DNA of 64,000 nucleotides from Pyruvatibacter mobilis (GTDB taxonomy: Bacteria > Pseudomonadota > Alphaproteobacteria > CGMCC-115125): positions 1,715,501-1,779,500 of the forward strand of contig NZ_CP051630.1 in NCBI RefSeq assembly GCF_012848855.1, read 5' to 3'. The notes beneath the pieces were generated by a model that had not been told where the DNA came from, did not search any database, and worked only from the letters and a program-made list of their open reading frames with translations. Position numbers and translations under genes: made by a program. Shown one piece after another: positions 43,938 to 64,000 of this stretch; the stretch's first letter is position 1, and every line of letters begins with the position of its first letter.

Positions 43938-44177
43938 TTAGCTGCTGGCGTTTTCCTTGATGAACTTGATGGCATCGCCGACCGTCAGGATGGTCTCGGC
44001 GGCATCATCGGGGATCTCGACTTCGAATTCTTCCTCGAAGGCCATGACCAGCTCGACGGTGTCCAGGCTGTCTGCGCCCAGATCATCGATGAAGCTGGCA
44101 TTTTCCGTGACCTTTTCAGGTTCGACGCCAAGGTGCTCGACGACGATCTTCTTCACGCTCTCTGCGATGTCACTCAT
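43938..44177 (-). CDS. acpP: Acyl carrier protein
   Basis: Carries growing acyl chains on phosphopantetheine. The 79-residue acidic helical protein has [13 protein letters not shown], with S37 as the attachment site. Sequence and length are standard. The frame is open further upstream, but the ATG at 44177 gives the family N terminus [16 protein letters not shown]. It lies between fabG and fabF; a possible promoter is present about 200 bp upstream. Confidence 0.98.
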
Positions 44178-44374
44178 GCTTTTTTCTCTCAGCTCGTAGT
44201 GTGCAATCAGCCGGATAACCGGTCTTGATCTGGGGCTCAACGTCCCGCCTCGCGCAACTCACCCGGATGTCACCATCCTGACTTCAATGCGGCAAGGGCG
44301 GAAAGGACAAATTTGCAGTGTTACCGGTAGCCAGCGCCTGCTCATGTCCCGAAAAGCGGTCGCTTGGTAACACA

Positions 44375-44401
44375 ATCATATTCCTTTGACCAGATTGTCA
44401 G
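44375..44401 (-). promoter_or_regulatory. Candidate acpP promoter
   Basis: On the minus strand, CTGACA (44401-44396) and TATGAT (44380-44375) lie about 200 bp upstream of acpP. The 15-bp spacing is shorter than optimal, so this is tentative. The 296-bp acpP-fabG gap (44178-44473) shows no other gene-like sequence. Confidence 0.3.
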
Positions 44402-44473
44402 CCCGAGGGCAATCCTTCTGAAAAACTCAAGTATTCCGGGCTTTTAGAAGCATCCCTCCGGGTAACAATGCGG

Positions 44474-45211
44474 TCAAATCATGGCCATGCCGCCGTTCAC
44501 ATGCAGGGTTTGGCCAGTGACGTAGGCTGCTTCCTCGCTGGCGAGGTAGAGCGCTGCGGCTGCGATCTCCTCAGACGTGCCGAGACGGCCCGCCGGGATG
44601 CGCGTTGAAATGGTCTCTTTCTGGCCATCATCCAGCACATCGGTCATCGCGGTCTTGATGAAGCCGGGGGCCACGCAATTGACGGTGATGTTGCGGCTGG
44701 CGACTTCCTGGGCGATCGACTTGGTCATGCCGATCATGCCGGCCTTGGCGGCGGCGTAGTTGGCCTGGCCGGGATTGCCCATGACACCGACCACCGAGGT
44801 GATGCCGATGATGCGGCCCCAGCGGCGCTTCATCATGCCGCGCATGACGCCGCGCGACAGGCGGAAGGCAGCGGTGAGGTTGACGGCAAGGACCTGGTCC
44901 CACTCGTCGTCTTTCATCCGCATAAAGATGTTGTCGCGGGTGATGCCGGCATTGTTGACGAGAATGTCGAGCTGGCCCATGGCCTCCTCGGCCTGCTTGG
45001 GCAGGGCGTCCACCGCGTCGAGATCGCTGAGATTACAGGGCAGCACATGGGTGCGTTCGCCCAGCTCGCCAGCCACGTCGGCCAGCACGTTTTCACGGGT
45101 GCCGGACAGGGCGACGGTTGCGCCCTGCGCATGAAGGGCCTTGGCGATGGCGCCGCCGATGCCGCCGGTGGCGCCGGTGACAAGCGCGGTCTTGCCGGTG
45201 AGGTCAAACAT
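44474..45211 (-). CDS. fabG: 3-oxoacyl-ACP reductase
   Basis: NADPH-dependent reductase in fatty-acid elongation, a classical SDR of 245 residues. It has VTGATGGIGGAIA (cofactor), NNAGI, and the catalytic S139, Y152 and K156 (IGITSVVG, NYAAAKAG), plus the family end VTGQTLHVNGGMAMI. It lies between fabD and acpP; all are on the minus strand in the order fabD-fabG-acpP-fabF. Confidence 0.97.
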   Translation of the reverse strand: MFDLTGKTALVTGATGGIGGAIAKALHAQGATVALSGTRENVLADVAGELGERTHVLPCNLSDLDAVDALPKQAEEAMGQLDILVNNAGITRDNIFMRMKDDEWDQVLAVNLTAAFRLSRGVMRGMMKRRWGRIIGITSVVGVMGNPGQANYAAAKAGMIGMTKSIAQEVASRNITVNCVAPGFIKTAMTDVLDDGQKETISTRIPAGRLGTSEEIAAAALYLASEEAAYVTGQTLHVNGGMAMI

Positions 45212-45284
45212 GGGGAGCTCCCTGCTGCTGTGTCTCAGTTGATCTTGTGCGGTGTACGGATCGTTTGCGGATCACATGTAGATG

Positions 45285-46247
45285 CTAGAGGCCGGTGTCG
45301 ATCAGGCCGCGCACGGCCTCGGCGGAATTGATGGTCTGGCCCTTGATGGATTTGTCGATCCACTTGGTGAGGCCGGTGAGCACCTTGCCGGAGCCGCATT
45401 CGACCAACTCCTCGACCCCCTGATCGCGCATATAGATGACGCTTTCACGCCAGCGGACGCGGCCGGTCACCTGCTCGACGAGCAGTGTGCGGATGATGTC
45501 GGGATCGGTGACGGCTTCGGCCCGCACATTGGCGACGACGGGCACGACGGGTGCGTTGATGGCGGTGTCCTTCAAGGCACCTGCCATCTCGTCGGCGGCG
45601 GGCTGCATGAGGGCTGAATGGAACGGCGCTGAGACCGCCAGCGGCATGGCGCGCTTGGCGCCCATTTCCTTGGCGATCTCGCAGGCCCGGTCGACGCCCG
45701 CCTTGGAGCCGGAGATGACCACCTGGCCGTTGGCATTGTCGTTGGCGACGCCGACGGGCTCGCCGGTTTCAGAGGCTGCCTGTTCGGCGGCGTCATTCAC
45801 CTTGTCGTTTTCAAGGCCGAGGGTGGCGGCCATGGCGCCCGCCCCCACCGGCACGGCGCGCTGCATGGCCTCGCCGCGCAGGCGCAGGAGGCGCGCGGCG
45901 GTGGCGATGTCGAAGGCGCCGGCGGCACAGAGGGCGGCATATTCACCGAGTGAGTGACCGGCGACGAATTTGGCGTGCTTTGCGAGGTCGAGGCCTGCTT
46001 CGGCTTCCAGCACACGCACCACCGCCATCGAGACGGCCATCAGCGCGGGCTGGGTGTTCATGGTGAGGGTCAGGTCTTCTTCCGGACCGTTCCACATAAT
46101 GTCGGTGAGCTTGAGACCAAGCGCCTGATCCACTTCATCGAAGACGGCCTTGGCCTGCGGGAAGGCATCGGCGAGGTCCTTGCCCATGCCGACGCTCTGG
46201 GCGCCCTGGCCGGGGAATGTGAAAGCACGGATCGGGGTATCGCTCAC
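45285..46247 (-). CDS. fabD: Malonyl-CoA--ACP transacylase
   Basis: Loads malonyl groups onto ACP. With a GTG start at 46247 (preceded by AGAGGTG) the protein has 320 residues: FTFPGQGAQSVGM, the nucleophile S99 in GHSLGE, and the histidine in SAPFHSALM. An upstream in-frame ATG at 46316 would add 23 residues with no family similarity, so I use the GTG. First gene of the fab run. Confidence 0.95.
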   Translation of the reverse strand: MSDTPIRAFTFPGQGAQSVGMGKDLADAFPQAKAVFDEVDQALGLKLTDIMWNGPEEDLTLTMNTQPALMAVSMAVVRVLEAEAGLDLAKHAKFVAGHSLGEYAALCAAGAFDIATAARLLRLRGEAMQRAVPVGAGAMAATLGLENDKVNDAAEQAASETGEPVGVANDNANGQVVISGSKAGVDRACEIAKEMGAKRAMPLAVSAPFHSALMQPAADEMAGALKDTAINAPVVPVVANVRAEAVTDPDIIRTLLVEQVTGRVRWRESVIYMRDQGVEELVECGSGKVLTGLTKWIDKSIKGQTINSAEAVRGLIDTGL

Positions 46248-46410
46248 TTGTGTCACCTCTGCCTGCTGTCCTGCTGCCCACCGGGGCAGCCGGGTCCGGT
46301 GTTGTCGACTCGCCACGCTTGGGGGCGTTCATGCGGAAAGACACTGGCCGCAGGCGTTGAGTCAAGACATCGGACACCATTGCCCCTTGCATTTGCGGGC
46401 ATCCGGACCG

Positions 46411-46442
46411 ACTTTGAAGCGGTCAAAGTTGGAGACTTTATG
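46411..46442. promoter_or_regulatory. Three evenly spaced ACTTT/AAAGT half-sites overlapping a candidate promoter
   Basis: ACTTTGA (46411-46417), its complement TCAAAGT (46423-46429) and ACTTT (46435-46439) are separated by 5 bp each, so adjacent dyads share a half-site and repeat every 12 bp. A plus-strand promoter-like pair, TTGAAG (46414-46419) and TTTATG (46437-46442) with a 17-bp spacer, overlaps it. The array lies in the 415-bp gap between divergent fabD and yjhX-like genes, about 165 bp from fabD and 220 bp from the other. It looks like an operator. Confidence 0.4.
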
Positions 46443-46662
46443 TCTAGTGAGATTGTGCTCGGCTAACGGGCGCTGATTTGGGTGGCCCTCCCTCGACCGA
46501 GGCGTGCGGCCCCTGCCCCATCAGACCCCGTTGCAACGAACCCGCACCGGCTGCGGGCGCGTGATCGTGCGCGCCTTCGCGCGTGCGGTGGGCGGATGGC
46601 GTGACGCGTCCGCCGACCTGCCGGCCGGTGCCTTCAGACTTAGTTTGACGGCACATCTCACA

Positions 46663-46935
46663 ATGAACCTCTCCCGCGACGAGCAGCGCGTGCTGCACGC
46701 CCTGGCGCAGGGCGGCTATATCCGCCATTTCAGGGCCATCTCGCCTTCCGGCCGACGCCAGAAGATCACCCATATCGAATGCATGACCCGCGACGGCTGG
46801 CTGTTGAGCCACTGCACCCTGCCGATTTTCGACAAGCTGCGCCGGAAACGGCTCATTTTCTCGGAAAACGGCTCGCCCTACCGCATCTCCCGCAAGGGCC
46901 TGACCCATGTGCGGGCGCGGCTGGACAACAGGTGA
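46663..46935 (+). CDS. YjhX family protein (UPF0386, putative toxin)
   Basis: A 90-residue basic protein. The family pattern is clear: [50 protein letters not shown] and RARLDNR. YjhX of E. coli is proposed as a toxin paired with YjhQ, an acetyltransferase, but this copy has no acetyltransferase beside it, and related alphaproteobacteria often carry it alone. The ATG at 46663 is set by similarity; the open frame extends further upstream. It is followed by a terminator at 47002. Confidence 0.9.
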
Positions 46936-47001
46936 TGATCGATTTCAAGCCCACCGGGGCGGCCACCGCTGCCCCGGTAGCGCGCATGACGGATGCAAAG
47001 T

Positions 47002-47032
47002 GCGCCTAAGCCCTTGCGCTTGGGCGCGTTTT
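47002..47032 (+). terminator. Rho-independent terminator after the YjhX-like gene
   Basis: GCGCCTAAGC pairs with GCTTGGGCGC (one wobble) around CCTTGC, followed by GTTTT. It separates this gene from the rpsF operon. Confidence 0.8.
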
Positions 47033-47220
47033 CTCGTATCTCCCCGCTTCGCTCAAGGTCCGGAGCCGGGAGCTGAAGGGACGGCGCTTTAGCGCTTACG
47101 TGAAATCGTACAACGGTCCTGGTGTTCCCGCCCGGTTCGTCTAACGGAGAACCTCCCTTTTCCGGACGAAGAACGGGGCTTCGCGCCCGGACCGGCTGAC
47201 TTCAAGGGAGCCCATTTCCA
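47033..47220 (+). other. rpsF leader region
   Basis: About 190 bp ahead of rpsF with several GC-rich hairpin-forming stretches, for example CGGGGC/GCGCCCG around TTC near 47173-47190. Many bacteria regulate this operon through an S6:S18-binding leader RNA that contains a bulged CCG. This segment could hold a version of it, but I cannot fold it reliably by eye. Confidence 0.3.
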
Positions 47221-47718
47221 ATGGCGCTTTACGAACACGTGTTTATTGCGCGGCAGGATGTGTCCGCGCAGCAGGTCGAGACTCTGACCGAAGAGTTCAA
47301 GACCGTGCTTGAGAGCAATGGTGGCTCGGTTGCCAAGGCCGAGTACTGGGGCATCAAGACGCTTGCCTACAAGATCAAGAAGAACCGCAAGGGCCACTAC
47401 ACCCTGCTGAACATCGACGCCCCGCACGCCGCGGTTGCCGAGATGGAACGCCAGATGGGCCTGCATGACGACATCCTGCGCTTCATCACCCTGCGGGTGG
47501 ATGAGCACGAGGAAGGCCCGTCGGCCATGATGCAGGCGCGCGGCCGTGACGACCGCCGCGGCGGTCGTGGCGGTGATCGTGGTGGCCGGGGTGGTGATCG
47601 TGGTGGCCGTGGTGATCGCGGTGACCGTGGTGGCGACCGTGGCGATCGCGGTGGTGACCGCAGCGCCCCTGAGGCCCGCAAAGAGGCAGAAGCCAAGAAA
47701 GAAGGAGCAGACGCATGA
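47221..47718 (+). CDS. rpsF: 30S ribosomal protein S6 with Gly/Arg/Asp-rich C-terminal tail
   Basis: Residues 1-97 are a normal S6 domain ([45 protein letters not shown]) that pairs with S18 on the platform of the 30S subunit. The remaining ~68 residues are an extension: from 108 to 147 it is built from short RGG, RGD and GDR units, then an Ala/Glu/Lys-rich end. Such tails vary between alphaproteobacteria; this one is long and strongly repetitive. The stop overlaps rpsR by 4 bp (ATGA). Confidence 0.97.
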
Positions 47719-47963
47719 AGGTAATTCCTTCCGACGCAGCCCGCCGGCCGTTCTTCCGCCGCCGCAAGACCTGCCCGTTCTCCGGCGCCAACGCTCCGAA
47801 GATCGACTACAAGGACACCCGTCTCCTGCAGCGCTACGTTTCCGAGCGCGGCAAGATCGTGCCGAGCCGCATCACGGCCGTGTCCGCCAAGAAGCAGCGT
47901 GAGCTGGCCCGCGCCATCAAGCGCGCCCGCTTCATGGCGCTGCTGCCTTACGTGGTCGACTAA
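47715..47963 (+). CDS. rpsR: 30S ribosomal protein S18
   Basis: Partner of S6 on the 30S platform. The 82-residue protein has [60 protein letters not shown]-type family sequence in correct order. Length is normal. The ATG overlaps the rpsF stop, and a strong terminator follows at 47980. Confidence 0.98.
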
Positions 47964-47979
47964 GACACACGACGTTTGA

Positions 47980-48015
47980 GGGCCCGCCGGATCATTTACC
48001 GCGCGGGCCCTTTTT
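47980..48015 (+). terminator. Rho-independent terminator after rpsR
   Basis: GGGCCCGC pairs with GCGGGCCC across a 15-base loop, followed by five T residues. Partial readthrough into the DUF2232 gene and rplI is possible, since those two lack an obvious promoter of their own. Confidence 0.85.
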
Positions 48016-48046
48016 CCGTTCACTGGCTGAGACCGCTACCTTGCGC

Positions 48047-49108
48047 ATGGGAAACATCCCACCCTGGGTCATCGGCGTGCTGGCGGGCCTTGCCAGCAGC
48101 ACGCTCTATGCGGCTGCGTCCGGCGGCGCGACGCCGGCGATCGTTCTTCTCTACCTGTCGCCGCTCCCCATTTTCATCGCAGGCCTCGGCTGGGGCTCCC
48201 TGATGGCGCTGATCGCCGGGGGCACGGGCCTGGTCCTCACCTCCCTGTTCAACGGCATTTCAAGCGGCGTGGTCTATCTCGCCGTGGAAGTGGCAGCCCC
48301 CCTGTGGCTGATGCGGCTGGCGCTGACTTCGCGGGCCGTGGGCGGCCGCGGTGCCTCGGCGGCTGCGCGGGCGGCACGGGCGCGGGAAGCGCATCACCGG
48401 GCGGTGGCTGCCGGTGAGATCGACGGGCCGCCGGACGACCTGCCCGAGCCCGAGGTGACCTGGTATCCGCCGGGCCTGCTGGTGGTGTGGACGACGGCGA
48501 TTGCCGCCTCGCTGCTGCTGATCTCGATCCTGTCGATGACGGTGACCGAGAACGGCCTGCGCGGAGCGATCATGCAGATGATCAATACGGGCATTGTTGA
48601 TACGGGCGAGCTTGGGCGGGTGCTGGACGCACGCGGCTTCGACATCAGCCCGCGGGCGTTCCTGGCGGGGATCGCCAGTTTCGTGCCGGCCATGGCGGCG
48701 AGCCTGTGGCTGATCATGACGCTGGCCAACATGATGGTGGCGCAGCTCATCCTGGTGCGGCTGGGGCGCGCTGCGCGGCCGACGCCGTCGATCGCGGAAT
48801 TGCGCTATCCGAAGCTGTTTCTGGCGATCTTCCCGGCCTCACTGCTGTTTGCCTTCCTGCCGGGGGAAGCGGGCTTTGCGGGGGCGTCGCTGGCGGCCGT
48901 CCTGTTCATTCCCTATTTCCTGTTGGGACTGGCCACAATTCATGCTATCTCGCGCCGCTGGCAGGCACGGTCTGCCGCGCTCACCGGGTTCTATACGGCC
49001 CTCGTCCTGCTGTCGCCGCTGGTTGCGGTGCTGGTGGGATGCCTGGGACTGGCGGATGCCTGGATGGGATTGCGGGAGCGCTACGCTCCCGACCTGGAAG
49101 CGGCCTGA
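48047..49108 (+). CDS. DUF2232 family membrane protein
   Basis: Polytopic inner-membrane protein of 353 residues with about eight hydrophobic segments. The first block (WVIGVLAGLASSTLYAAA, then YLSPLPIFIAGLGWG) matches the DUF2232 N terminus. A charged Ala/Arg-rich loop (about 105-135) separates it from the second half. The gene regularly sits between rpsR and rplI in alphaproteobacteria. I start at the ATG at 48047; a TTG at 48041 would extend it by two residues. Function unknown; an energy-coupling or S-component-like transport role has been suggested for relatives of the fold, which I cannot verify. Confidence 0.82.
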   Translation: MGNIPPWVIGVLAGLASSTLYAAASGGATPAIVLLYLSPLPIFIAGLGWGSLMALIAGGTGLVLTSLFNGISSGVVYLAVEVAAPLWLMRLALTSRAVGGRGASAAARAARAREAHHRAVAAGEIDGPPDDLPEPEVTWYPPGLLVVWTTAIAASLLLISILSMTVTENGLRGAIMQMINTGIVDTGELGRVLDARGFDISPRAFLAGIASFVPAMAASLWLIMTLANMMVAQLILVRLGRAARPTPSIAELRYPKLFLAIFPASLLFAFLPGEAGFAGASLAAVLFIPYFLLGLATIHAISRRWQARSAALTGFYTALVLLSPLVAVLVGCLGLADAWMGLRERYAPDLEAA

Positions 49109-49218
49109 GGCTGCTTCCAGAAACTCTGCCGCTAACCACCCTGCGCGGTGGGACAGGCGCGACGATCTGGCCGCATCGGGCGGCAGGCGGCGCTTGCTGG
49201 AAGAAGGACTAGTTTCCA

Positions 49219-49848
49219 ATGGACGTTATTCTGCTTGAACGGGTCGAGAAGCTCGGCCAGATGGGCGACGTGGTTGACGTGAAGCCGGGCTACGCCCGCA
49301 ACTTCCTGCTGCCGCGCGGCAAGGCGCTGCGTGCCAACAAGGAAAACCGCAAGCGCTTCGAAGCCGAGCGCGCCCAGCTCGAGGCCCGCAACCTTGAACT
49401 GCGCAAGGAAGCCGAAGCGGTTGAGACCAAGCTCAACGGCGAAAGCGTGATCGTGATCCGCTCTGCTTCGGAAACCGGCCAGCTCTACGGCTCCGTGGCC
49501 ACCCGCGACGTGGCTTCCGCCCTGACCGAGGCCGGGTTCACCGTGGCCCGCCAGCAGGTGGAGCTGCAGCGCCCGATCAAGATCCTGGGCCTGCACGACG
49601 TGCTGATCCGTCTGCATCCGGAAGTCTCTGCGACCGTCACCGTCAACGTGGCGCGGACGCAGGAAGAAGCCGAGCGCCAGGCGCGCGGTGAGGACGTGAC
49701 CGTCGACCGCACCGACGAGGAAGAGGAAGCAGCGCTCCTCGCCGAGGAAGTGTTCGAGGATGCCGAAGCCGCCGCCGCTCTCGAAGAGGGTGACGCTGCC
49801 GAGGCCGGTGACGATGACGCCGCCGCCGAGGAAGAGACCCAGGCCTGA
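49219..49848 (+). CDS. rplI: 50S ribosomal protein L9 with acidic C-terminal tail
   Basis: Binds 23S rRNA near the L1 stalk. The 209-residue protein has the N-terminal RNA-binding domain [32 protein letters not shown], the connecting helix ([23 protein letters not shown]-type) and the C-terminal domain with [10 protein letters not shown]. Beyond about residue 150 it has a tail of roughly 55 residues that is almost entirely Glu, Asp and Ala. Long acidic L9 tails are known in alphaproteobacteria. A terminator follows at 49895. Confidence 0.97.
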
Positions 49849-49894
49849 CGCCAGGGCATTTTCCGGGGCGCCAGCCCTTAGGACGACACGACAA

Positions 49895-49925
49895 CGCCGC
49901 TGCCCATGCCGGGCGGCGGCGTTTT
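49895..49925 (+). terminator. Rho-independent terminator after rplI
   Basis: CGCCGCTGCCC pairs with GGGCGGCGGCG (11 bp, one wobble) across ATGCC, followed by TTTT. Confidence 0.85.
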
Positions 49926-49942
49926 CATTTGCGGTGCAACAA

Positions 49943-49968
49943 ATATCGGGCTCCAAGAGGCCTGATAT
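49943..49968. promoter_or_regulatory. Imperfect dyad upstream of cfa
   Basis: ATATC (49943-49947) and GATAT (49964-49968) are the outer arms of a dyad that extends inward with two wobble pairs. It lies in the 304-bp gap between the rplI terminator and cfa, about 260 bp before the start. I see no convincing promoter hexamers nearby, so the role is open. Confidence 0.25.
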
Positions 49969-50229
49969 GTTGCGATATGTCGTATAAGCCGATTTTTCCT
50001 GCAGCTGCGAAGGCGGGTTTTCCCCGGTTTTTCCGCGCCAGCGTCACGCTCGATATCCCCGCCCTTATCCCCGCAGCGCCCGCCCCCCAGATGCTCGATC
50101 GGATGCCCCCTTGCGCCTGCCGCCCGGGGGCATAGACTTTTGGGTGGCCGCTGCCCGGATCCTGCGGGCCCGGGCCGGCTGCCATGCTGATGGGCTGGGC
50201 AGACAATTGGGCATGCATGAGGTGCTGAG

Positions 50230-51483
50230 ATGTTCCTCCGGTGGTTGCTCGACTATGTGGTGAAGACCGGCCGGCTCACGGTGGTCGAAGCCAATGGGAA
50301 GACCTGGACAGTGGGCGATGGCGGCCCGCCCGGGGTGACACTCACCCTGCGGGACGCGAAGATCGGTCGCGCCATCGCCTTCAACCCGCATCTCAAATTC
50401 GGCGAAGCCTATATGGACGGCCGCCTCGACATCACCGAGGGCGATGTCTGGGACCTGATGGACCTGCTGGGCCGCAATGTGGGCACCGGTTACGGCACGC
50501 CGCTGGCGGCTGCCATCGCCCGGGCCCGGCGGCTCTACCGGCGGGTGCTGCAGCACAACCCGATCGGCCGGGCCAAAGACAATGTGGCCCATCACTACGA
50601 TCTGGACGGCGGGCTCTATGACCTGTTCCTGGACCCGGACCGGCAATATTCGTGTGCCTATTTCGAAACCCCGGACACAAGCCTTGACGAGGCGCAGCTG
50701 GCCAAAAAGCGCCACATCGCCGCCAAGCTCAGGCTGGAGCCGGGCAACCGGGTGCTTGATATCGGGTCTGGCTGGGGCGGGCTCGGGCTCTATCTGGCGC
50801 AGATGGAAGAGGTGGACGTGACCGGCGTCACCCTGTCCGAGGAGCAGCACACCCTGTCGAGCGCCCGCGCCCTGCATCAGGGTCTCGACAGCCGGGTGCG
50901 GTTCCGGCTGGAGGACTACCGGCATCTGGACCCGGCGTTTGACCGCATCGTCTCGGTTGGCATGTTCGAGCATGTGGGGGTGGGTCACTATCAGGAGTAT
51001 TTTGACCAGGTGGCCCGGCTGCTCGACGAGGACGGGGTGGCGCTGATCCATTCCATCGGCCGCATCGACGGGCCGGGCACGACCAATCCGTGGATCGCCA
51101 AATACATCTTTCCCGGCGGCTACATTCCGGCCCTGAGCGAGGTCCTGCCGGCCATCGAAAAGGCGGGCCTGTTCGTCACCGACATCGAGATCCTGCGCCT
51201 GCATTATGCGGAGACCCTGCGCCACTGGCGGGAGCGCTTCACCGCCAACCGCGACCGGGCAAAGGAGATCTATGACGAGCGCTTCTGCCGCATGTGGGAG
51301 TTCTACCTGGCGGCCTCCGAAAGCTCGTTCCGGCATATGGGATTCATGGTGTTCCAGGTGCAGCTGACCCGCAAGGTGGATGCCCTGCCGATGACCCGCA
51401 GCTACATGACAGAGGCCGAAACCACCCTGCACCGGCGCGAGGAAACGCTTCAGTCCACAGGCCGCAGCAAGCTGCGGGCGTGA
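50230..51483 (+). CDS. cfa: Cyclopropane-fatty-acyl-phospholipid synthase family methyltransferase
   Basis: Adds a methylene group from SAM across double bonds of membrane lipid acyl chains, usually under stationary or acid stress. The 417-residue protein has the N-terminal helical domain (FNPHLKFGEAYMDGRLDITEG), then HHYDLDGGLYDLFLDPDRQYSCAYF, SAM-binding VLDIGSGWGGLGLYL and the catalytic-domain blocks GVTLSEEQ, FDRIVSVGMFEHVG and FPGGYIPALSEV. It begins a plus-strand run leading to dnaB. Confidence 0.93.
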   Translation: MFLRWLLDYVVKTGRLTVVEANGKTWTVGDGGPPGVTLTLRDAKIGRAIAFNPHLKFGEAYMDGRLDITEGDVWDLMDLLGRNVGTGYGTPLAAAIARARRLYRRVLQHNPIGRAKDNVAHHYDLDGGLYDLFLDPDRQYSCAYFETPDTSLDEAQLAKKRHIAAKLRLEPGNRVLDIGSGWGGLGLYLAQMEEVDVTGVTLSEEQHTLSSARALHQGLDSRVRFRLEDYRHLDPAFDRIVSVGMFEHVGVGHYQEYFDQVARLLDEDGVALIHSIGRIDGPGTTNPWIAKYIFPGGYIPALSEVLPAIEKAGLFVTDIEILRLHYAETLRHWRERFTANRDRAKEIYDERFCRMWEFYLAASESSFRHMGFMVFQVQLTRKVDALPMTRSYMTEAETTLHRREETLQSTGRSKLRA

Positions 51484-51542
51484 GTCGCGCCGTGCCTGAA
51501 GTGTTTGATTCTGTGAGTCATTGGAATCGGTTAGACTGAATC
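51482..51542. promoter_or_regulatory. Cluster of five GANTC (CcrM-type) sites upstream of dnaB
   Basis: GAGTC (51482-51486), GATTC (51507-51511), GAGTC (51515-51519), GAATC (51524-51528) and GAATC (51538-51542) fall within 61 bp, mostly in the cfa-dnaB gap. GANTC is the target of the cell-cycle methyltransferase CcrM in many alphaproteobacteria, and such sites are normally sparse in GC-rich DNA. The cluster is directly readable; its function is inferred. Confidence 0.6.
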
Positions 51543-51549
51543 GCGCACA

Positions 51550-51570
51550 TCATCCACAGGCTGTGGATAT
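51550..51570. promoter_or_regulatory. Facing pair of DnaA-box-like 9-mers upstream of dnaB
   Basis: TCATCCACA (51550-51558) and TGTGGATAT (51562-51570, reading ATATCCACA on the minus strand) each match TTATCCACA at eight of nine positions. Together they make a perfect 8-bp inverted repeat around one G. They lie about 75-95 bp before the dnaB ATG and just after the GANTC cluster. Confidence 0.45.
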
Positions 51571-51646
51571 GATTTTTGTGTACAGCGCCGGGCTTGCCCC
51601 AATTGACGCCTGACGGCTGGTCGCAGCTGCGTTACATACTGTGGTC

Positions 51647-53155
51647 ATGGATCCCGCACCGACTCCCTTCCCTGCTCCCGACGACACGCCTGATCCCGAT
51701 TTCGAGGGCATCAAGTATCGCGAGATGCCGCACTCAATCGAGGCGGAGCAGGCACTCTTGGGGGCGATCCTCGTCAACAACGAGGCCTATGACAAAGTCT
51801 CCGAGTTCCTGTCGGCGGATCATTTCTACGAGCCGCTGCACGCGCGCATCTTCGAGGCGGTGGCGCAGCTCGTGGTGGGCGGTCACCTGGCGACGCCGGT
51901 TACCCTCAAGGCGTTTTTCGAGCGCGACAGCGCACTGGCCGATGTGGGCGGCCCTGCCTATCTGGCGCGGCTGGCAGCCGCTGCCGTGGCGACGCCGCAT
52001 GCGCGCGATTACGGCCGGGCGATCTATGACCTCGCCGTCCGGCGCGAGCTGATCCGGCTGGGCGAGGACATCACCGCCACCGCCGAGGACACCCCCATCG
52101 ACCTGCCGCCGACGCAGCAGATCGAGAACGCCGAAGCCGCGCTCTACAATCTGGCCGAGAAGGGCCGCTATGAAGGCGGCTTCATTCCGTTCAAGAACTC
52201 GCTGACCGGTGCGCTGGACATGGCCGCTGCCGCCTATCAGCGCGAGGGCCAGCTGTCTGGCCTCTCAACCGGCCTGCGCGACCTCGATGCCAAGCTGGGC
52301 GGGTTGCAGTCCTCCGACCTCATCATCCTTGCCGGGCGTCCCTCCATGGGCAAGACGGCGCTGGCCACCAACATCGCCTTCAATGCCGCCAAGGCCTTCC
52401 GCACCGAGATCGACGAGAACGGCCGCGAGAAGGTGGCCGATGGCGGCGTGGTAGCGTTCTTCTCGCTGGAAATGTCGGCCGAGCAGCTGGCGACCCGACT
52501 TCTGGCAGAGCATTCGGGCATCTCGTCGGAGAAGATCCGGCGCGGCGAGATCACGGCGGACGAGTTCGGCCAGCTGCGCGAGGCAACCGAGCTTCTGCAG
52601 TCGATCCCGCTTTACATCGACCATACCGGCGGCATCGCCATCTCCACCCTCGCCGCGCGCGCCCGGCGGCTGAAGCGCCAGGTGGGTCTGCAGCTGATCG
52701 TGGTTGACTATCTCCAGCTCGTCACCTCCAGCGGCAAGAACCAGGACAACCGCGTGCAGGAGGTGACGGCCATCACCACCGGCCTCAAGGCACTGGCGAA
52801 GGAGCTGAATGTGCCGATCATGGCGCTGTCGCAGCTCTCCCGTCAGGTGGAAGCGCGCGACGACAAGCGCCCGCAGCTGTCGGACCTGCGTGAATCCGGC
52901 TCGATCGAGCAGGACGCCGACGTGGTGATGTTCGTCTATCGCGAGGAATATTACCTGCTGCGCTCGGAGCCGTCGGAAGGCACGCCCGAACATCTCAAAT
53001 GGCAGGAAGACTGCACCCGTGCCCATGGCAAGGCCGAGGTGATTGTCGGCAAGCAGCGCCATGGTCCCACCGGCCGCGTGGAGCTGCAGTTCCAGGCCAA
53101 CCTCACCCGCTTCGGTGATCTTGACCATTTCCACCAGTCCTATGATGGTCCGTGA
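51647..53155 (+). CDS. dnaB: Replicative DNA helicase DnaB
   Basis: Hexameric helicase of the replication fork. From the ATG at 51647 (a GTG at 51641 is possible) it has 502 residues: the N-terminal primase-interaction domain (MPHSIEAEQALLGAILVNN), then the RecA-like domain with Walker A GRPSMGKTA (230-238), FFSLEMSAEQLATRLL, the Walker B region LIVVDYLQLV and QLSRQVEARDDKRP. The length is normal and no intein is present. alr follows after 30 bp. Confidence 0.97.
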   Translation: MDPAPTPFPAPDDTPDPDFEGIKYREMPHSIEAEQALLGAILVNNEAYDKVSEFLSADHFYEPLHARIFEAVAQLVVGGHLATPVTLKAFFERDSALADVGGPAYLARLAAAAVATPHARDYGRAIYDLAVRRELIRLGEDITATAEDTPIDLPPTQQIENAEAALYNLAEKGRYEGGFIPFKNSLTGALDMAAAAYQREGQLSGLSTGLRDLDAKLGGLQSSDLIILAGRPSMGKTALATNIAFNAAKAFRTEIDENGREKVADGGVVAFFSLEMSAEQLATRLLAEHSGISSEKIRRGEITADEFGQLREATELLQSIPLYIDHTGGIAISTLAARARRLKRQVGLQLIVVDYLQLVTSSGKNQDNRVQEVTAITTGLKALAKELNVPIMALSQLSRQVEARDDKRPQLSDLRESGSIEQDADVVMFVYREEYYLLRSEPSEGTPEHLKWQEDCTRAHGKAEVIVGKQRHGPTGRVELQFQANLTRFGDLDHFHQSYDGP

Positions 53156-53185
53156 TCTGGCAATTCTGCGGTCCGGCCCCTCATC

Positions 53186-54319
53186 GTGACATCGACGCCC
53201 CCTTCCCTTCCGGCTTCCGGGCTTTCTGCTTCCGGCTCCCTGACCATCGACCTCGGTGCCCTGGCGCGGAACTGGCGCGCGGCGCATGAGGCCAGCGGGA
53301 CAGCGCGGGCCAGTGCTGTCATCAAGGCGGATGGCTACGGGCTTGGGGCGGTCGAAGTGGCGCGCACGCTGGCCAAGGCCGGCTGCCGGGATTTCTTCGT
53401 GGCCCTGCCGTCTGAAGGCATCGCCGTGCGCAGCGTCGCGCCGGACGCGGCCATCTATGTGCTTAACGGGCCGATGGCAGGCCATGTGGATGCCATGGCC
53501 GATGCCGGGCTGATCCCTGTGCTCAACGGGCCGGAGCAACTGGCCCTGTGGGCGCAGGCCGGCGACCGCCATGGCCGCCCCCTGGCTGCTTCCATGATGC
53601 TCGACACCGGCATGAACCGGCTGGGCTTCGACGAGGCAGCGCTCGACGCGCTGGCGCCGGATGCCCTGCAGGGGATCGACCTGCGCCTGGTCTTGAGCCA
53701 CCTGGCCTGTGCGGATGATCCGTCTGCGGACATGAACATCGTGCAGCGGGCGCGGTTCAACCGCATGCGGTCGCGCCTGCCGGATGTGGAAGCCAGCCTG
53801 TGCAATTCGGCGGGCATCTTCCTGGGGCCCGACTATCACTACGAGCTGACCCGGCCGGGCGTGTGCCTTTATGGCGGCAGCCCGTTCATCGCGGAGCCCG
53901 CGCCGTTTCACCATGTTGTGACGGTGGGGGCCGAAGTGGTGCAGCTGCGGCGGGTGCCGGCGGGTGAAACCATCGGCTACGGTGCCACCTTCACTGCAGC
54001 CTCGGACATGCGCACCGCCACCATCGCGGCGGGCTATGCGGACGGCATCTTCCGGGCGGCGGGAAACCGCGGCTTTGCCGCCATCAACGGGGTGCGCGTG
54101 CCCTATGTGGGCCGGGTTTCCATGGACCTCGTGGTGCTCGACGTCACTGCCCTGCCCGACGGCGCGGTCAGGCCCGGCGACCAGGCGGAGGTGCTGGGGC
54201 CGACCATAAGTGTGGATGATCTGGCACAGGCCTCTGGCACCATCGGGTACGAGGTGTTAACCAGCTTGGGCTCACGGTATGAGCGGCGCTATATTGCAGC
54301 CGATTTCAGCCAATTCTGA
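53186..54319 (+). CDS. alr: Alanine racemase
   Basis: PLP enzyme that supplies D-alanine for peptidoglycan. The 377-residue protein has the PLP lysine K47 in VIKADGYGLG, the substrate region LDTGMNRLGF, and GYADGIFR and GRVSMDLVVLDVT in the C-terminal beta domain with the second catalytic tyrosine in ETIGYGATF. It starts with GTG at 53186; the first ~18 residues are a low-complexity Ser/Pro leader. dnaB-alr-radA order is common in alphaproteobacteria. Confidence 0.95.
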   Translation: MTSTPPSLPASGLSASGSLTIDLGALARNWRAAHEASGTARASAVIKADGYGLGAVEVARTLAKAGCRDFFVALPSEGIAVRSVAPDAAIYVLNGPMAGHVDAMADAGLIPVLNGPEQLALWAQAGDRHGRPLAASMMLDTGMNRLGFDEAALDALAPDALQGIDLRLVLSHLACADDPSADMNIVQRARFNRMRSRLPDVEASLCNSAGIFLGPDYHYELTRPGVCLYGGSPFIAEPAPFHHVVTVGAEVVQLRRVPAGETIGYGATFTAASDMRTATIAAGYADGIFRAAGNRGFAAINGVRVPYVGRVSMDLVVLDVTALPDGAVRPGDQAEVLGPTISVDDLAQASGTIGYEVLTSLGSRYERRYIAADFSQF

Positions 54320-54381
54320 GCACCCGCCCCTGCCGGGCCGCCCCACTGCCCGGCGCCCGACCCGACGAGGAGTGACATCCG

Positions 54382-55155
54382 GTGAACCTGTTTGCCCTGG
54401 TTGGGCGTGCCGTTCTGACCTTCCTTGCCGAAGTCGGCGCGCTGTCTCGTTTCACCCTCCGGGCCCTGCGGGCGTGTGTTGCGCCTCCCATCTATTTCCG
54501 GCTCATCGGCGTGCAGATGCTGCGCATCGGCTATTTCTCGCTGCCGGTCGTCGGCCTCACCGCCTTCTTCACCGGCGGCGTGCTGGCGCTGCAAATCTAT
54601 ATCGGCGGCTCCCGCTTCAATGCGGAGGGCTTCGTCGCCAACATCGTGGCCATCGGCATAACCCGCGAGCTGGGTCCGGTGATCGCCGGGCTCATGGTCG
54701 CGGGCCGTGTTTCGGCGGCAATCGCAGCCGAGATCGGCACCATGCGTGTCACCGAGCAGATCGACGCGCTGGTGACGCTCTCCACCAACCCGTTCAAATA
54801 CCTGGTGGCGCCGCGCATCATTGCTGCGGTCGTCTCCATGCCGCTGCTGGTGGTGGTGGCCGACATCATCGGCATCTTCGGCGGCTTCACCGTCGGGACC
54901 CAGAGCCTGGGCTTCAATCCGCTGGTCTATATCGGCAATACGGTTGATTTCATCGAGGTGCAGGATGTCACCTCCGGCCTCATCAAGTCCGCGGTGTTCG
55001 GCTTCATCATCGCGCTGATGGGGTGCTATGCGGGCTATCGCAGCATGGGCGGCGCGCAGGGCGTGGGCCGCGCCACCACCAATGCCGTGGTGGCCGCCTC
55101 GATCCTTATCCTTGCCGCCAACTACCTGATGACGTCGCTGCTCTTCACTTCCTGA
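54382..55155 (+). CDS. mlaE: MlaE-type ABC transporter permease
   Basis: Permease of the Mla retrograde phospholipid transporter. The 257-residue protein shows the MlaE pattern: an interfacial helix, YFSLPVVGLTAFFTGGVLALQ, ITRELGPVIAGLMVAGRV, AEIGTMRVTEQIDAL and a C-terminal VAASILILAANYLMTSLLF. A GTG start follows GAGGAGTGAC. It pairs with mlaF; the MCE subunit gene is at 5.2-5.6 kb. Confidence 0.93.
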   Translation: MNLFALVGRAVLTFLAEVGALSRFTLRALRACVAPPIYFRLIGVQMLRIGYFSLPVVGLTAFFTGGVLALQIYIGGSRFNAEGFVANIVAIGITRELGPVIAGLMVAGRVSAAIAAEIGTMRVTEQIDALVTLSTNPFKYLVAPRIIAAVVSMPLLVVVADIIGIFGGFTVGTQSLGFNPLVYIGNTVDFIEVQDVTSGLIKSAVFGFIIALMGCYAGYRSMGGAQGVGRATTNAVVAASILILAANYLMTSLLFTS

Positions 55156-55183
55156 TTTCCTGTTCGCCAGAGGCAAGACCGAC

Positions 55184-55960
55184 ATGGCCGCATCGCCGAA
55201 AATCCAGCTGACCGACGTGCACAAGAGCTTCGGCCCAAAGACCGTGCTGGACGGCATCAACCTCACCGTCGAGCAGGGCCGCTCCATGGTGGTGATCGGC
55301 GGCTCGGGTACCGGCAAGTCGGTGATGCTCAAATGCATTCTCGGGCTCATCCATCCCACGTCCGGTTCCATCAAGGTCGATGGCGAGGAAGTGACCGGCA
55401 TCTCCGAGCGGGAGCGCGAGCAGGTGCTGAAGAAGTTCGGCATGCTGTTCCAGAGCGCGGCATTGTTCGACAGTCTCAAGGTCTGGGAAAATGTCGCCTT
55501 CGCGCTGGTGCAGGGCGAGAACATGCCGCGCGCCCAGGCCAAGGACATCGCCATCGAGAAGCTGGCCAAGGTCGGCCTGTCGGCGGATGTGGGCGAGCTC
55601 AACCCGTCGGAATTGTCCGGCGGCATGCAGAAGCGCGTGGGCCTCGCCCGCGCCATCGCCCATGACCCTGAGATCGTCTTCTTCGACGAGCCGACCACGG
55701 GCCTCGACCCCATCATGGCGGATGTCATCAACGAGCTGATCGTGGACACAGTGAAGGACATGGGCGCGACGGCGCTTTCCATCACCCATGACATGGCCTC
55801 GGCCCGCAAGATCGCCGATCACATGGCGATGATCTACAAGGGCCAGATCATCTGGACGGGCGATGCGTCCGAGGTGGATAGTTGCGGCAATCCCTATGTG
55901 GACCAGTTCGTCAACGGCCGGGCGGAAGGCCCGATCCAGATGGAGGTGCTGAAGGCGTAA
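55184..55960 (+). CDS. mlaF: MlaF-type ABC transporter ATP-binding protein
   Basis: ATPase of the Mla transporter. The 258-residue protein has Walker A GGSGTGKSV, the Q-loop FGMLFQSAALFDSLKVWENVA, signature LSGGMQKRVGLARAIAHDP and Walker B IVFFDEPTTGLDPI, then the H-loop THDM. Encoded 28 bp after mlaE; radA follows after 30 bp. Confidence 0.95.
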   Translation: MAASPKIQLTDVHKSFGPKTVLDGINLTVEQGRSMVVIGGSGTGKSVMLKCILGLIHPTSGSIKVDGEEVTGISEREREQVLKKFGMLFQSAALFDSLKVWENVAFALVQGENMPRAQAKDIAIEKLAKVGLSADVGELNPSELSGGMQKRVGLARAIAHDPEIVFFDEPTTGLDPIMADVINELIVDTVKDMGATALSITHDMASARKIADHMAMIYKGQIIWTGDASEVDSCGNPYVDQFVNGRAEGPIQMEVLKA

Positions 55961-55990
55961 CGGCGCCCGCCGCCCCGCCCGACGCGTTTG

Positions 55991-57385
55991 ATGGCCAAGC
56001 CCGCCACCCGCTTCGTTTGCCAGAATTGCGGCGCCGTCCATGCCAAATGGGCGGGCAAGTGTGATGGCTGCGGCGAGTGGAACTCGCTCGTCGAGGAAAC
56101 CGCAGGCTCAGGCCCCGCGGGCTCTCCCGCCACAGCCAGGCTGACACGCGGCGCGCGCAAGGTGCTCGACCTTGTGCCGCTTGAGGGCGAGACGGCGGAA
56201 GCCCCGCGCCATATCACCGGCATCGCCGAGTTCGACCGGGTCTGCGGCGGCGGGCTGGTGCCGGGCTCGGCGCTTCTTGTCGGTGGTGATCCGGGCATCG
56301 GCAAATCAACCATCCTGCTGCAGGCGATGGCAGCGCTGGGACGCAGCGGCAAGCGGGCGCTCTACATCTCCGGCGAGGAGGCCATCGCCCAGGTGCGCAT
56401 GCGCGCGCGGCGGCTGGGGCTTGAGAAGTCTCCGGTGGAGCTTGCTGCCGCCACCAGCCTTGCCGACATCGTCGCGACGCTGGAGCAGGCCCCGGCGGCG
56501 GATGCCGTCGTCATCGATTCGATCCAGACCATGTGGTCCGACGCGCTTGAATCAGCCCCCGGCACGGTCTCCCAGGTGCGGGCCTGCGCGCAGGCGCTGG
56601 TGCAGGTCGCCAAGGCCAAGGGCACGGCATTGATCATCGTCGGCCATGTCACCAAGGAAGGGCAGATCGCCGGGCCGCGCGTGGTGGAGCACATGGTGGA
56701 CACGGTGCTCTATTTCGAAGGCGAGCGCGGGCATCAGTTCCGCATCCTGCGCGCGGTGAAGAACCGCTTCGGCCCCACCGACGAGATCGGCGTCTTCGAG
56801 ATGCGCGACACGGGCCTTGCGGAAGTTGCCAACCCGTCCGCCCTGTTCCTCAATGACCGCTCGGAAAGCGCGTCCGGCTCGGTGGTGTTTGCCGGGATTG
56901 AAGGCACGCGGCCAGTGCTGGTTGAAATCCAGGCGCTGGTGGTGCGTACCTCGTTGGGCACGCCGCGCCGCGCCGTCGTCGGCTGGGATGGCGGCCGGCT
57001 GTCCATGGTGCTGGCGGTGCTCGAAGCCCGCTGCGGCACCAGCTTCGGCGGCTTCGATGTCTATCTCAACGTGGCTGGCGGCCTCAGGGTCAACGAGCCT
57101 GCCGCCGACCTTGCCGTGGCCGCCGCCCTGTTATCGTCGCTTGATGATGCCCCGATCGACCCGCAGACCGTCGTCTTCGGCGAGATCAGCCTGTCGGGCG
57201 ACATCCGGGCCGTCACCCAGGCGGAGAACCGGGCCAAGGAAGCCGCCAAGCTCGGCTTCAGGAAGGCCATCGGCCCAAAGGGACTGAAAGCGCTGTCCGG
57301 CGGTCTCACGGTCCGGGAGATCGGCACCATCGGCCAGCTCGTTAACGTCATTTGCCATTCCGACGTGCCCGGCGGCGACGCTTAG
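55991..57385 (+). CDS. radA: DNA repair protein RadA
   Basis: RecA-related ATPase that aids branch migration in recombination. From the ATG at 55991 (a TTG precedes it) the 464-residue protein has an N-terminal zinc finger (C10, C13, C24, C27), Walker A GGDPGIGKST, the RadA motif KNRFG and a C-terminal Lon-protease-like domain (DVYLNVAGGLRVNEPAADLAVAAALLS). Complete. cvpA follows. Confidence 0.96.
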   Translation: MAKPATRFVCQNCGAVHAKWAGKCDGCGEWNSLVEETAGSGPAGSPATARLTRGARKVLDLVPLEGETAEAPRHITGIAEFDRVCGGGLVPGSALLVGGDPGIGKSTILLQAMAALGRSGKRALYISGEEAIAQVRMRARRLGLEKSPVELAAATSLADIVATLEQAPAADAVVIDSIQTMWSDALESAPGTVSQVRACAQALVQVAKAKGTALIIVGHVTKEGQIAGPRVVEHMVDTVLYFEGERGHQFRILRAVKNRFGPTDEIGVFEMRDTGLAEVANPSALFLNDRSESASGSVVFAGIEGTRPVLVEIQALVVRTSLGTPRRAVVGWDGGRLSMVLAVLEARCGTSFGGFDVYLNVAGGLRVNEPAADLAVAAALLSSLDDAPIDPQTVVFGEISLSGDIRAVTQAENRAKEAAKLGFRKAIGPKGLKALSGGLTVREIGTIGQLVNVICHSDVPGGDA

Positions 57386-57451
57386 GGTAAAACCCTGTTC
57401 ACCATGAATGTTGCGTCATCGGCGGGGAAAGCATGACGAAGAGGGGGCAGG

Positions 57452-58123
57452 ATGACCGGGTTTGACGCCATCGTCATCGCGGTGACGCTGATATCCGGCC
57501 TGCTGGCCATGGTGCGCGGCTTCGTGCGCGAAATGCTGTCGATCCTCGCCTGGGTCACGGCCGCGGCTGCTGCCATCATCGCCCTGCCCTATCTGTCGCC
57601 CAAGGCGCGCGAATGGATCGAGCCGACATGGCTGGCGGACGGCTCCGCCGCCTTTCTCGTCTTCGCCGTCGTGCTGGTCCTGGCCTCCTTCCTCAGCTTC
57701 TATCTGGGCGAGCGGGTGCCGGACGGGCATGTGGGGGCGCTTGACCGCACCGGCGGGTTCCTGTTCGGCCTGGCCAGGGGTTTTCTGCTTGTCACCATCG
57801 CCTATATGTTCATCGCCTGGCTCGTGGCGCGGGATGATTTTCCGGCCTGGCTGGACGAATCGCGGCTGTTGCCGCTGGTCTCCGCAACGGCGGAAACCCT
57901 GACAAATCTGGTTGATCCGGGTGAGGAGAACCGTCCCGCCCAGCATGCACGCCCGAAACAGGCTGCACCCGCCGCCACACCGAATGCCGGGTCCACAACC
58001 GGCAGCAAGGCAGACCCGCAAAATGGCAGCGCTGACAGCGACGCCGCCGAAGGGTATAACGCTGAGGAACGCCGCCGCCTCGACCAGCTGATCGAGTCGG
58101 TCGACAATGGGAACGGGCAGTGA
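57452..58123 (+). CDS. cvpA: CvpA family membrane protein
   Basis: Inner-membrane protein of 223 residues linked to colicin V production in E. coli and to envelope stress resistance elsewhere. Four hydrophobic helices (for example ITLISGLLAMVRG-like start, AAFLVFAVVLVLASFLSFYLG and GFLLVTIAYMFIAWLV) precede a hydrophilic Ala/Asp-rich tail of about 75 residues. It sits directly before purF, the conserved cvpA-purF order. Confidence 0.92.
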   Translation: MTGFDAIVIAVTLISGLLAMVRGFVREMLSILAWVTAAAAAIIALPYLSPKAREWIEPTWLADGSAAFLVFAVVLVLASFLSFYLGERVPDGHVGALDRTGGFLFGLARGFLLVTIAYMFIAWLVARDDFPAWLDESRLLPLVSATAETLTNLVDPGEENRPAQHARPKQAAPAATPNAGSTTGSKADPQNGSADSDAAEGYNAEERRRLDQLIESVDNGNGQ

Positions 58124-58234
58124 TCGACGGCCAGCTCATCCGGAGCTGAAGGCGGTCCGGCAGACCGCTCACCCATTCGGTTCTTCCAAGGGATGCCGTC
58201 CCCATCCGGGCATCCCGTGGCGCAAGAGGTTGCC

Positions 58235-59758
58235 TTGACCAAGCAAGACGCATCCAAGTCCGGCTCCCCTACCCCGGCACAGAACGACACCCTCATCGAT
58301 TACGAGACCTGGCGCGAGATCATGGAAGGCGACACGCTGCGCGAAGAGTGCGGCGTGTTCGGCGTTTATGGCCATGAAGACGCCGCCGCGCTGACGGCGC
58401 TGGGCCTGCACGCGCTCCAGCACCGCGGACAGGAAGCAGCCGGCATCGTCTCCTATGACGGCAGCCGCTTCAACGCGGAGCGCCGCATGGGCCTTGTGGG
58501 CGACCACTTCTCGTCCGAGAAGATGATCAACCGCCTGGCGGGCAACGCCGCCATCGGCCACAACCGCTATTCGACCACCGGCGAAACCATGCTGCGCAAT
58601 GTGCAGCCGCTGTTCGCTGATCTGTGGGGCGGCGGGTTTGCCATCGGCCACAACGGCAATCTCACCAATGCGCTGACCCTGCGTGACCAGCTGGTGCGCG
58701 ACGGGGCGATCTTCCAGTCCACCTCGGACACCGAGACCATTCTCCAGCTCGTCGCCCGCTCGGCCAAGCCGCGCATCGTGGAACGTCTGGTGGACGCGCT
58801 GACCCAGGTGGAAGGCGCCTATGGTCTTGTCTGCCTGACGCCGAAGAAGCTGATCGGCGCGCGCGACCCGCAGGGCATCCGCCCGCTGGTGATGGGCGAC
58901 CTCAATGGCTGCCCGGTGCTGGCCTCGGAAACCTGCGCGCTGGACATCATCGGTGCCCATTTCGTGCGCGAGATCGAGCCCGGCGAAATCGTGGTGTGTA
59001 CGGAAGATGGCGTGGAGAGCCACAAGCCCTTCCCGCCGCAGCCCTGCCGGCCGTGCGTGTTCGAGCACATCTATTTCGCCCGTCCGGATTCCATCGTCGG
59101 CGGCAAGAGCGTCTATGCGGTGCGCAAGGAGTTCGGCGCGCAGCTTGCTGCTGAAAGCCATGAGGACGCGGATGTCGTCATCCCGGTGCCTGATTCCGGC
59201 GTGCCGTCCGCCCTTGGCTATGCCGAGAAAGCGGGCCTGCCCTTCGAGCTGGGCCTGATCCGCAATCATTATGTGGGCCGCACCTTCATCGAGCCGACCC
59301 AGCAGATCCGCCAGCTCGGCGTGAAGCTGAAGCACAATCCCAACCGGGCCATGGTGGAAGGCAAGCGCGTGGTGCTGGTGGATGACAGCGTGGTGCGCGG
59401 CACCACCTCCATCAAGATCGTGCAGATGATCCGCGACGCCGGTGCGCGGGAGGTGCATCTGCGCATCGCCAGCCCGCCCATCACCCATTCGGACTTTTAC
59501 GGCATCGACACGCCGGACCAGTCCAAGCTGCTGGCGCACCGCTTCGACCTCGAGGGCATGCGCTCCTACATCGGCGTCGACAGCCTCGCCTTCCTCACCG
59601 TCGAGGGTCTTTACAAGGCGCTCGGCTACGAGGCGCGCGACGATGAGCACCCGCAGCTCACCGACCATTGTTTCACGGGCGATTATCCGACGCCGCTGAC
59701 CGATCGCGATGGCGACCGGGCGGGCGCGCAGCTGTCGCTGCTGGCGGAAATTGCCTGA
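58235..59758 (+). CDS. purF: Amidophosphoribosyltransferase
   Basis: Commits PRPP to purine synthesis using glutamine nitrogen. The glutaminase nucleophile is the Cys in EECGVFGVYG, which becomes residue 1 after propeptide removal; HRGQEAAGI, AIGHNRYSTTG and HNGNLTN follow. The PRPP site is VVLVDDSVVRGTT. I favour a TTG start at 58235 (AAGAGG 5 bp upstream), which leaves a propeptide of about 38 residues; an ATG at 58193 would add 14 more. C-terminal PRTase domain is complete. Confidence 0.95.
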   Translation: MTKQDASKSGSPTPAQNDTLIDYETWREIMEGDTLREECGVFGVYGHEDAAALTALGLHALQHRGQEAAGIVSYDGSRFNAERRMGLVGDHFSSEKMINRLAGNAAIGHNRYSTTGETMLRNVQPLFADLWGGGFAIGHNGNLTNALTLRDQLVRDGAIFQSTSDTETILQLVARSAKPRIVERLVDALTQVEGAYGLVCLTPKKLIGARDPQGIRPLVMGDLNGCPVLASETCALDIIGAHFVREIEPGEIVVCTEDGVESHKPFPPQPCRPCVFEHIYFARPDSIVGGKSVYAVRKEFGAQLAAESHEDADVVIPVPDSGVPSALGYAEKAGLPFELGLIRNHYVGRTFIEPTQQIRQLGVKLKHNPNRAMVEGKRVVLVDDSVVRGTTSIKIVQMIRDAGAREVHLRIASPPITHSDFYGIDTPDQSKLLAHRFDLEGMRSYIGVDSLAFLTVEGLYKALGYEARDDEHPQLTDHCFTGDYPTPLTDRDGDRAGAQLSLLAEIA

Positions 59759-59776
59759 CCCCAAGACCGAGATTTC

Positions 59777-60496: not shown

Positions 60497-60509
60497 ACTC
60501 CCATATCCG

Positions 60510-60524: not shown

Positions 60525-60589
60525 AGACCCACTCGCTTATCGGCTTGTCGCGGTATCGGTGGTGCATGTCCGTGCCTGCCGCCAGAGAT

Positions 60590-63999: not shown

Positions 64000-64000
64000 C

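Follow-up and report, generated by a model that had tools for sequence, protein, structure and literature searches.

The interval directly ahead of dnaB in Pyruvatibacter mobilis carries a dense cluster of CcrM-type GANTC sites beside a pair of DnaA-box-like sequences. Is expression of the replicative helicase gene tied through these sites to the chromosome cycle, or does the interval serve another purpose? We examined this question in a window of 64,000 nucleotides, positions 1715501-1779500 of a genome that consists of one contig of 3,333,914 bases; coordinates of this locus are those of the window. As the preliminary description had it, the stretch precedes dnaB: the downstream gene (51647-53155, plus strand) matched two models of replicative DNA helicase, both over cut-off (NCBIfam NF006606, 757 bits; TIGR00665, 510 bits). 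Its start is probably the ATG at 51647 and not the GTG at 51641, because ATGGAWCC is kept across the genus alignment. The upstream gene on the same strand (50230-51483) encodes a cyclopropane fatty acid synthase (cfa; NCBIfam NF053839, 648 bits, over cut-off).

Five GANTC sites, starting at 51482, 51507, 51515, 51524, and 51538, lie within 61 bp (51482-51542, unstranded), the first of them overlapping the TGA stop codon of cfa. Two of the five fit YGAKTCK, the context given as preferred by GcrA in PMC7987155. After a gap of 7 bp follow two DnaA-box-like 9-mers, each one mismatch away from TTATCCACA: TCATCCACA on the plus strand (51550-51558) and, on the minus strand, ATATCCACA (51562-51570), which reads TGTGGATAT on the plus strand. 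The two boxes lie face to face across the 3-bp spacer GGC, and together with it they form the near-perfect dyad ATCCACAGGCTGTGGAT; the region upstream of dnaB in this genome contains no exact copy of TTATCCACA. The layout first noticed here, five GANTC sites in 61 bp followed within 8 bp by two facing boxes, is thus borne out by motif counting.

To judge how unusual the cluster is, we compared GANTC density across the genome. The motif is strongly depleted, with 61 occurrences in the window against 255.7 ± 14.4 in shuffled sequences, and with 0.94 sites/kb (369 in 392 kb of sampled genome) versus 1.34/kb for CTNAG. Under a Poisson model, about 0.001 five-site clusters this tight would be expected per genome at 0.95 sites/kb and about 1.1 at the unsuppressed density of 3.9/kb, which means that in an AT-richer spacer density by itself does not settle the matter. 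GANTC triplets with gaps of at most 25 bp numbered 27, versus 13 for the reversed control pattern, and merged into 18 cluster loci. In the three congeners the corresponding counts were 24 versus 23, 25 versus 24, and 25 versus 14; since two of these three lie close to the control, triplets alone are weak evidence. When triplets were chained, clusters of at least five sites occurred at only three places in 3.33 Mb, upstream of ccrM (six sites), ftsB/divIC (five), and dnaB (five). The ftsB/divIC cluster, at 1546.9 kb of the genome, has five GANTC sites in 74 bp directly upstream of the gene and no DnaA box within 120 bp; the five-in-74-bp array is seen at loci L062 (1501-1574) and L175 (1977-2050). 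We assigned ftsB from a DivIC Pfam match obtained with the congener protein and from the 76% tblastn match of that protein in this genome. Triplets also lie upstream of ftsA, of a PAS/HisKA kinase gene, and of a gene for a coiled-coil protein, weakly matched by the family libraries, which we take to be PodJ-like.

The preliminary description made its reading depend on the presence of a ccrM gene, and the genome encodes both CcrM and GcrA. The CcrM protein contains a RAMA domain (70 bits) and an N6_N4_Mtase domain (243.6 bits) and matches the NCBIfam CcrM model over its full length at 639 bits, below the cut-off of 830 for that model; GcrA was identified by PF07750 (188.8 bits). The six-site cluster upstream of ccrM (L002, 460-580) is accompanied by the inverted box pair TTATCCACTGGCTGTGGATAT and a TTAA-N6-TTAA motif. 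Neither of the two congeners aligned there keeps the box pair, and their GANTC sites are retained only in part; for this reason we do not claim shared control of dnaB and ccrM for the genus. Upstream of gcrA (L001, 1300-1375) are two exact copies of TTATCCACA in opposite orientation, with no GANTC in 421 bp around the gene start.

Conservation upstream of dnaB distinguishes part of the stretch from its surroundings. An alignment of all four genus genomes delimits a block at 51524-51580 (plus strand) that comprises the two proximal GANTC sites, the box pair, and a TATSATTT tail. Of its 57 columns, 46 are invariant, and the pairwise identity with each of the three congeners is 82 to 84%, whereas identity falls to 29 to 45% immediately upstream (51482-51523), 35 to 37% farther upstream (51307-51480), and 39 to 42% between the block and dnaB (51581-51646). 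For the distal GANTC sites (51482 and 51507) this alignment shows no conservation of position. The dyad pattern ATCCACNNNNNGTGGAT has exactly one match in each of the three congeners, at dnaB in every case, and three matches in this genome (dnaB, the ccrM upstream region, and a GC-rich hairpin at genome position 1080141); its reversed control gave none. In the three congeners, a second copy, made up of GANTC sites and a single box (CTATCCACAGG or TCATCCACAGG), lies 145 bp further upstream of dnaB. An order-level search returned only the four genus genomes; a close relative, the Candidatus Phaeomarinobacter metagenome-assembled genome at locus L068, encodes a DnaB that is 90% identical. The element is kept in all four genus genomes, and the competing prospect of equally dense clusters at unrelated loci with nothing conserved here did not materialize.

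The block might instead end the cfa transcription unit, with the GANTC density incidental. A terminator scan did find a hairpin at 51552-51580 (plus strand) followed by ATGATTTTTG, with 0.4 such matches expected in shuffled sequences. Yet the hairpin is not unusually stable (folding z-score, −0.26), its T-run is not kept in the three congeners although the dyad is, so that of the four genomes this one alone has a structure like an intrinsic terminator, and the conserved block begins upstream of the hairpin and takes in GANTC sites. The missing T-run of the congeners in particular weakens the terminator reading, which we judge very unlikely. The conserved tail contains a candidate −10 element, TATGAT (TATCAT in the congeners), at 51568-51573 on the plus strand, with no good −35 element. 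This TATSAT is the sole −10-like match and overlaps the second box; we infer it from the alignment, since a promoter scan of the stretch found no full σ70 consensus match.

Are the 9-mers DnaA boxes? Their near-perfect dyad symmetry is atypical for double DnaA boxes and each is one position off consensus, as might be expected if another dimeric regulator bound the dyad and the GANTC sites acted separately through GcrA. A discussion of E. coli DnaA in PMC11317965 describes a preference for double boxes, modelled in tandem 2 to 3 bp apart; the pair upstream of dnaB agrees in its 3-bp spacing but not in orientation. Against a different dimeric protein, the second copy in the congeners is a single box, unlike a dimer site, and exact copies of TTATCCACA lie upstream of dnaB in other families. 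We therefore regard binding by such a regulator as unlikely.

The comparison across families drew on 51 other-family genomes with a dnaB match, of which 48 were usable after G033, G050, and G051 (partial or broken matches) were dropped; one of the 48 loci, L032, has only 50 bp upstream. Exact TTATCCACA occurred 13 times in the 250-bp regions upstream of dnaB (11.8 kb) versus once in the remaining 186.9 kb of the loci, and 299 permuted 9-mers in the same upstream regions averaged 0.08 occurrences, with a maximum of 3. An exact box was present at 11 of the 48 loci and a box with at most one mismatch at 22. This comparison over 48 families shows the presence of DnaA boxes upstream of dnaB to be a common trait of the alphaproteobacteria. 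GANTC was hardly enriched over the same 48 families (2.80 versus 2.18/kb), and in the nearest relatives outside the genus, Tepidicaulis (L069) and L070, the 900 bp ahead of dnaB contain no GANTC. A second set comprised 79 named dnaB loci (80 kept of 109, minus L068, which has the same sites as congener G002); these loci are interrelated, rich in Hyphomicrobiales and Brevundimonas, and not independent. In this set, exact boxes numbered 11 upstream of dnaB versus 1 in the rest, with one permuted 9-mer reaching 6, and GANTC reached 7.24/kb upstream versus 1.35/kb elsewhere, a ratio of 5.35, compared with 1.16- to 1.92-fold enrichment for seven other palindromic pentamers. At four of the named loci a GANTC starts exactly 11 bp before TTATCCACA; the corresponding distance at dnaB in the window is 12 bp.

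GANTC clusters and DnaA boxes also co-occur across the genome. Within 120 bp of the 18 GANTC clusters we counted 9 boxes with at most one mismatch versus 0.53 expected from a 443-kb background, and 6 boxes at the five clusters with at least four GANTC sites versus 0.16 expected; none of 200 permuted 9-mers reached either count. The two motifs were also searched for as a composite pattern, GANTC-N0..25-GANTC-N0..18-ATCCACA. Across the four genus genomes it gave 25 matches (overlaps included) versus 1 for the reversed pattern, and in the genome of the window it was confined to dnaB (two overlapping matches) and to 636.3-636.5 kb (two matches). The distance from the outer GANTC to the end of the box is 33 to 35 bp in most genus copies; one G003 match, at 3295247, has a span of 39 bp, G002 matches at a third locus are in some cases shorter or longer, and additional GANTC sites produce further span lengths.

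The 636-kb matches lie in the spacer between an ELM1-family gene (PF06258) and a peroxiredoxin gene and have the form GANTC-N4-GANTC-N11/12-TTATCCACAG. Two to three such GANTC-GANTC-box modules are kept in this spacer in all four genus genomes (L055, 1380-1700, corresponding to 636.2-636.5 kb of the genome of the window; L220; L221; and L222), with one or two exact boxes per genome and, in some, near-exact ones besides. Measured from the peroxiredoxin start, the modules lie 280 to 460 bp upstream in this genome and G001 and about 1.35 to 1.44 kb or further upstream in G003. This array could be a DnaA sink or a regulatory array. At congener peroxiredoxin loci (e.g., L221), a palindrome, TTAGAAGAATTCTAA, which we take to resemble an Irr/Fur-type site, lies about 110 to 170 bp upstream of the peroxiredoxin start. 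The third composite locus, present in the three congeners, combines a GANTC cluster with an exact TTATCCACA near a thioesterase-like gene, assigned by eye (L174, 2001-2058; L180, 2001-2058; and L185, 2315-2372). A GDSL/AlgX-like gene adjoins it in G003, and a similar gene, again identified by eye, is found in G001; the genome of the window has no composite match at this locus.

The peroxiredoxin array raises the possibility that the composite serves to titrate or convert DnaA and stands before dnaB incidentally. Loci such as datA and DARS are clusters of several DnaA boxes in intergenic DNA away from the origin, and the stretch upstream of dnaB likewise has several boxes in an intergenic position off the origin. 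It differs from them in having fewer boxes, in being linked to GANTC sites, and in adjoining a replication gene. A role of this kind would suit the arrays of two to three modules several hundred base pairs upstream of the peroxiredoxin gene, far from its start, and the two copies upstream of dnaB in the congeners; a passage of PMC6090056 refers to datA itself as a titration locus. However, there are few boxes per locus, and boxes that immediately precede dnaB in many families are better explained by promoter control. We consider a datA- or DARS-like function here quite unlikely.

Beyond the genus, 13 of 55 other-family genomes contained the strict composite, with 14 matches in all versus 4 for the reversed pattern. 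In 4 of the 13 genomes, from four families, it lies upstream of uvrC (L249, L253, L254, and L256; TIGR00194 over cut-off in all four), and it was also found upstream of rpoN and of a gene for a RarA-like ATPase. None of the matches in the 55 genomes lies at dnaB, where the complete composite is so far confined to the genus. These occurrences lead us to propose, tentatively and with more doubt than confidence, that a DnaA box and a pair of GANTC sites at almost constant spacing may form a recurrent composite, a methylation-gated DnaA site whose occupancy would depend on replication of the locus and which would have been reused at dnaB, at uvrC, and in the peroxiredoxin array.

The co-occurrence of DnaA boxes and GANTC would also be expected of a replication origin, and the preliminary description had allowed for a local replication element at this site. 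To place dnaB on the chromosome, we followed the polarity of GGGNAGGG, which we take to be KOPS, the motif followed by FtsK. Its forward-to-reverse ratio was 47:1 over the eight samples between 0.17 and 1.38 Mb and 5:44 over those between 1.53 and 1.89 Mb, which include the window, and polarity was weak or mixed from 2.55 to 3.08 Mb, the range that contains dnaA. The terminus is thus probably located between 1.38 and 1.53 Mb. The motif is reverse biased in all four quarters of the window and keeps the same polarity on both sides of dnaB, and dnaA lies at 2.798 Mb, about 1.03 Mb from dnaB (a second, shorter DnaA_C match lies at 1.969 Mb). With polarity constant across the site, we reject a replication origin at dnaB, and any other local replication element there is extremely unlikely. 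The GC skew falls from about +0.05 to about 0 near dnaB (window positions 44000-64000, with the change near 50-52 kb). Taken as a polarity switch at dnaB, this change is misleading, since the KOPS switch lies at 1.38-1.53 Mb. No DnaA-box cluster stood out near dnaA. If the origin is near dnaA, dnaB lies about 0.73 to 0.81 of the way down its replication arm. Near-terminus sites in Caulobacter are described in PMC3973325 as hemimethylated in <10% of cells.

Taken together, these results lead us to regard the stretch as probably the promoter or regulatory region of dnaB under DnaA and CcrM/GcrA control, a reading that we hold with some reserve. It is supported by a block conserved in the genus between unconserved flanks, by the second GANTC/box copy in the three congeners, by the co-occurrence of GANTC clusters with DnaA boxes, by a composite pattern that in this genome matches only at dnaB and at one other intergenic locus, by the enrichment of exact TTATCCACA in the dnaB upstream regions of many families and of GANTC in those of the named loci, by the presence of genes for GcrA and for a CcrM with methylase and RAMA domains, and by the place of Caulobacter dnaB in the DnaA regulon (PMC8203912). 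We count against it the off-consensus, inverted boxes, the unconserved distal GANTC sites, the lack of GANTC in the two nearest outside relatives and its near absence of enrichment over 48 families, and three papers whose main text yielded no mention of dnaB (PMC3973325, PMC4287350, and PMC7987155).

Under this promoter reading, CcrM would methylate the GANTC sites, GcrA together with σ70 RNA polymerase would read their methylation state, and DnaA would bind the box pair. Transcription of dnaB would be predicted to rise around replication initiation, when the locus is fully methylated, and to change on fork passage in late S phase. The candidate −10 element over the second box would favor repression by occlusion; by analogy, a statement on the Caulobacter DnaA regulon in PMC8203912 favors activation. 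The preliminary description had suggested a tie of helicase expression, or of a local replication element, to hemimethylation after fork passage. A tie of helicase expression to the cell cycle gains from the ccrM and gcrA genes, the conservation in the genus, the boxes across the class, and the Caulobacter regulon as summarized in PMC8203912. The hemimethylation component needs modification. If the origin is near dnaA, dnaB stands roughly three quarters along its arm, and the hemimethylated interval of its sites would be short and fall late in S phase, so that the fully methylated form, present during G1 and for most of S phase, would be the more natural state to read.

Parts of this arrangement have precedents. 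A passage of PMC8203912 that cites Hottes et al. (2005) places Caulobacter crescentus dnaB, with predicted DnaA boxes upstream, in the DnaA regulon. There, expression is DnaA dependent; the boxes here differ in forming an inverted, 3-bp-spaced, near-consensus pair joined to a GANTC cluster. In Caulobacter, DnaA is also described as activating gcrA, ftsZ, mipZ, and hdaA (PMC3193534), and ctrA, ftsZ, mipZ, and others are listed among GANTC promoters controlled by CcrM/GcrA (PMC3973325). Agrobacterium gcrA is given as having six GANTC sites in 250 bp and as a case in which dense GANTC represses (PMC11514494). Like these promoters, the dnaB stretch has GANTC sites upstream of a cell cycle gene; they are crowded there, as they are at Agrobacterium gcrA, although the rest of the genome avoids the motif. 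It differs in that its target is the replicative helicase and its GANTC sites abut DnaA boxes, and dnaB does not appear in the main text of PMC3973325 or PMC11514494. Both the regulation of dnaB by DnaA and promoters governed by methylation have thus been published already. In the openly accessible papers searched, we found neither the joint, block-conserved arrangement at dnaB nor the composite of two GANTC sites plus a box, a weak absence.

The arrangement opens to test the question of whether methylation of adjacent GANTC sites alters DnaA binding outside the origin. The element is common to this marine alphaproteobacterium and the three relatives nearest to it. The stretch probably ties helicase supply to the chromosome cycle, as a compact, conserved site at which DnaA-driven initiation, the passage of replication as marked by CcrM, and GcrA-dependent transcription could meet on the replicative helicase gene.
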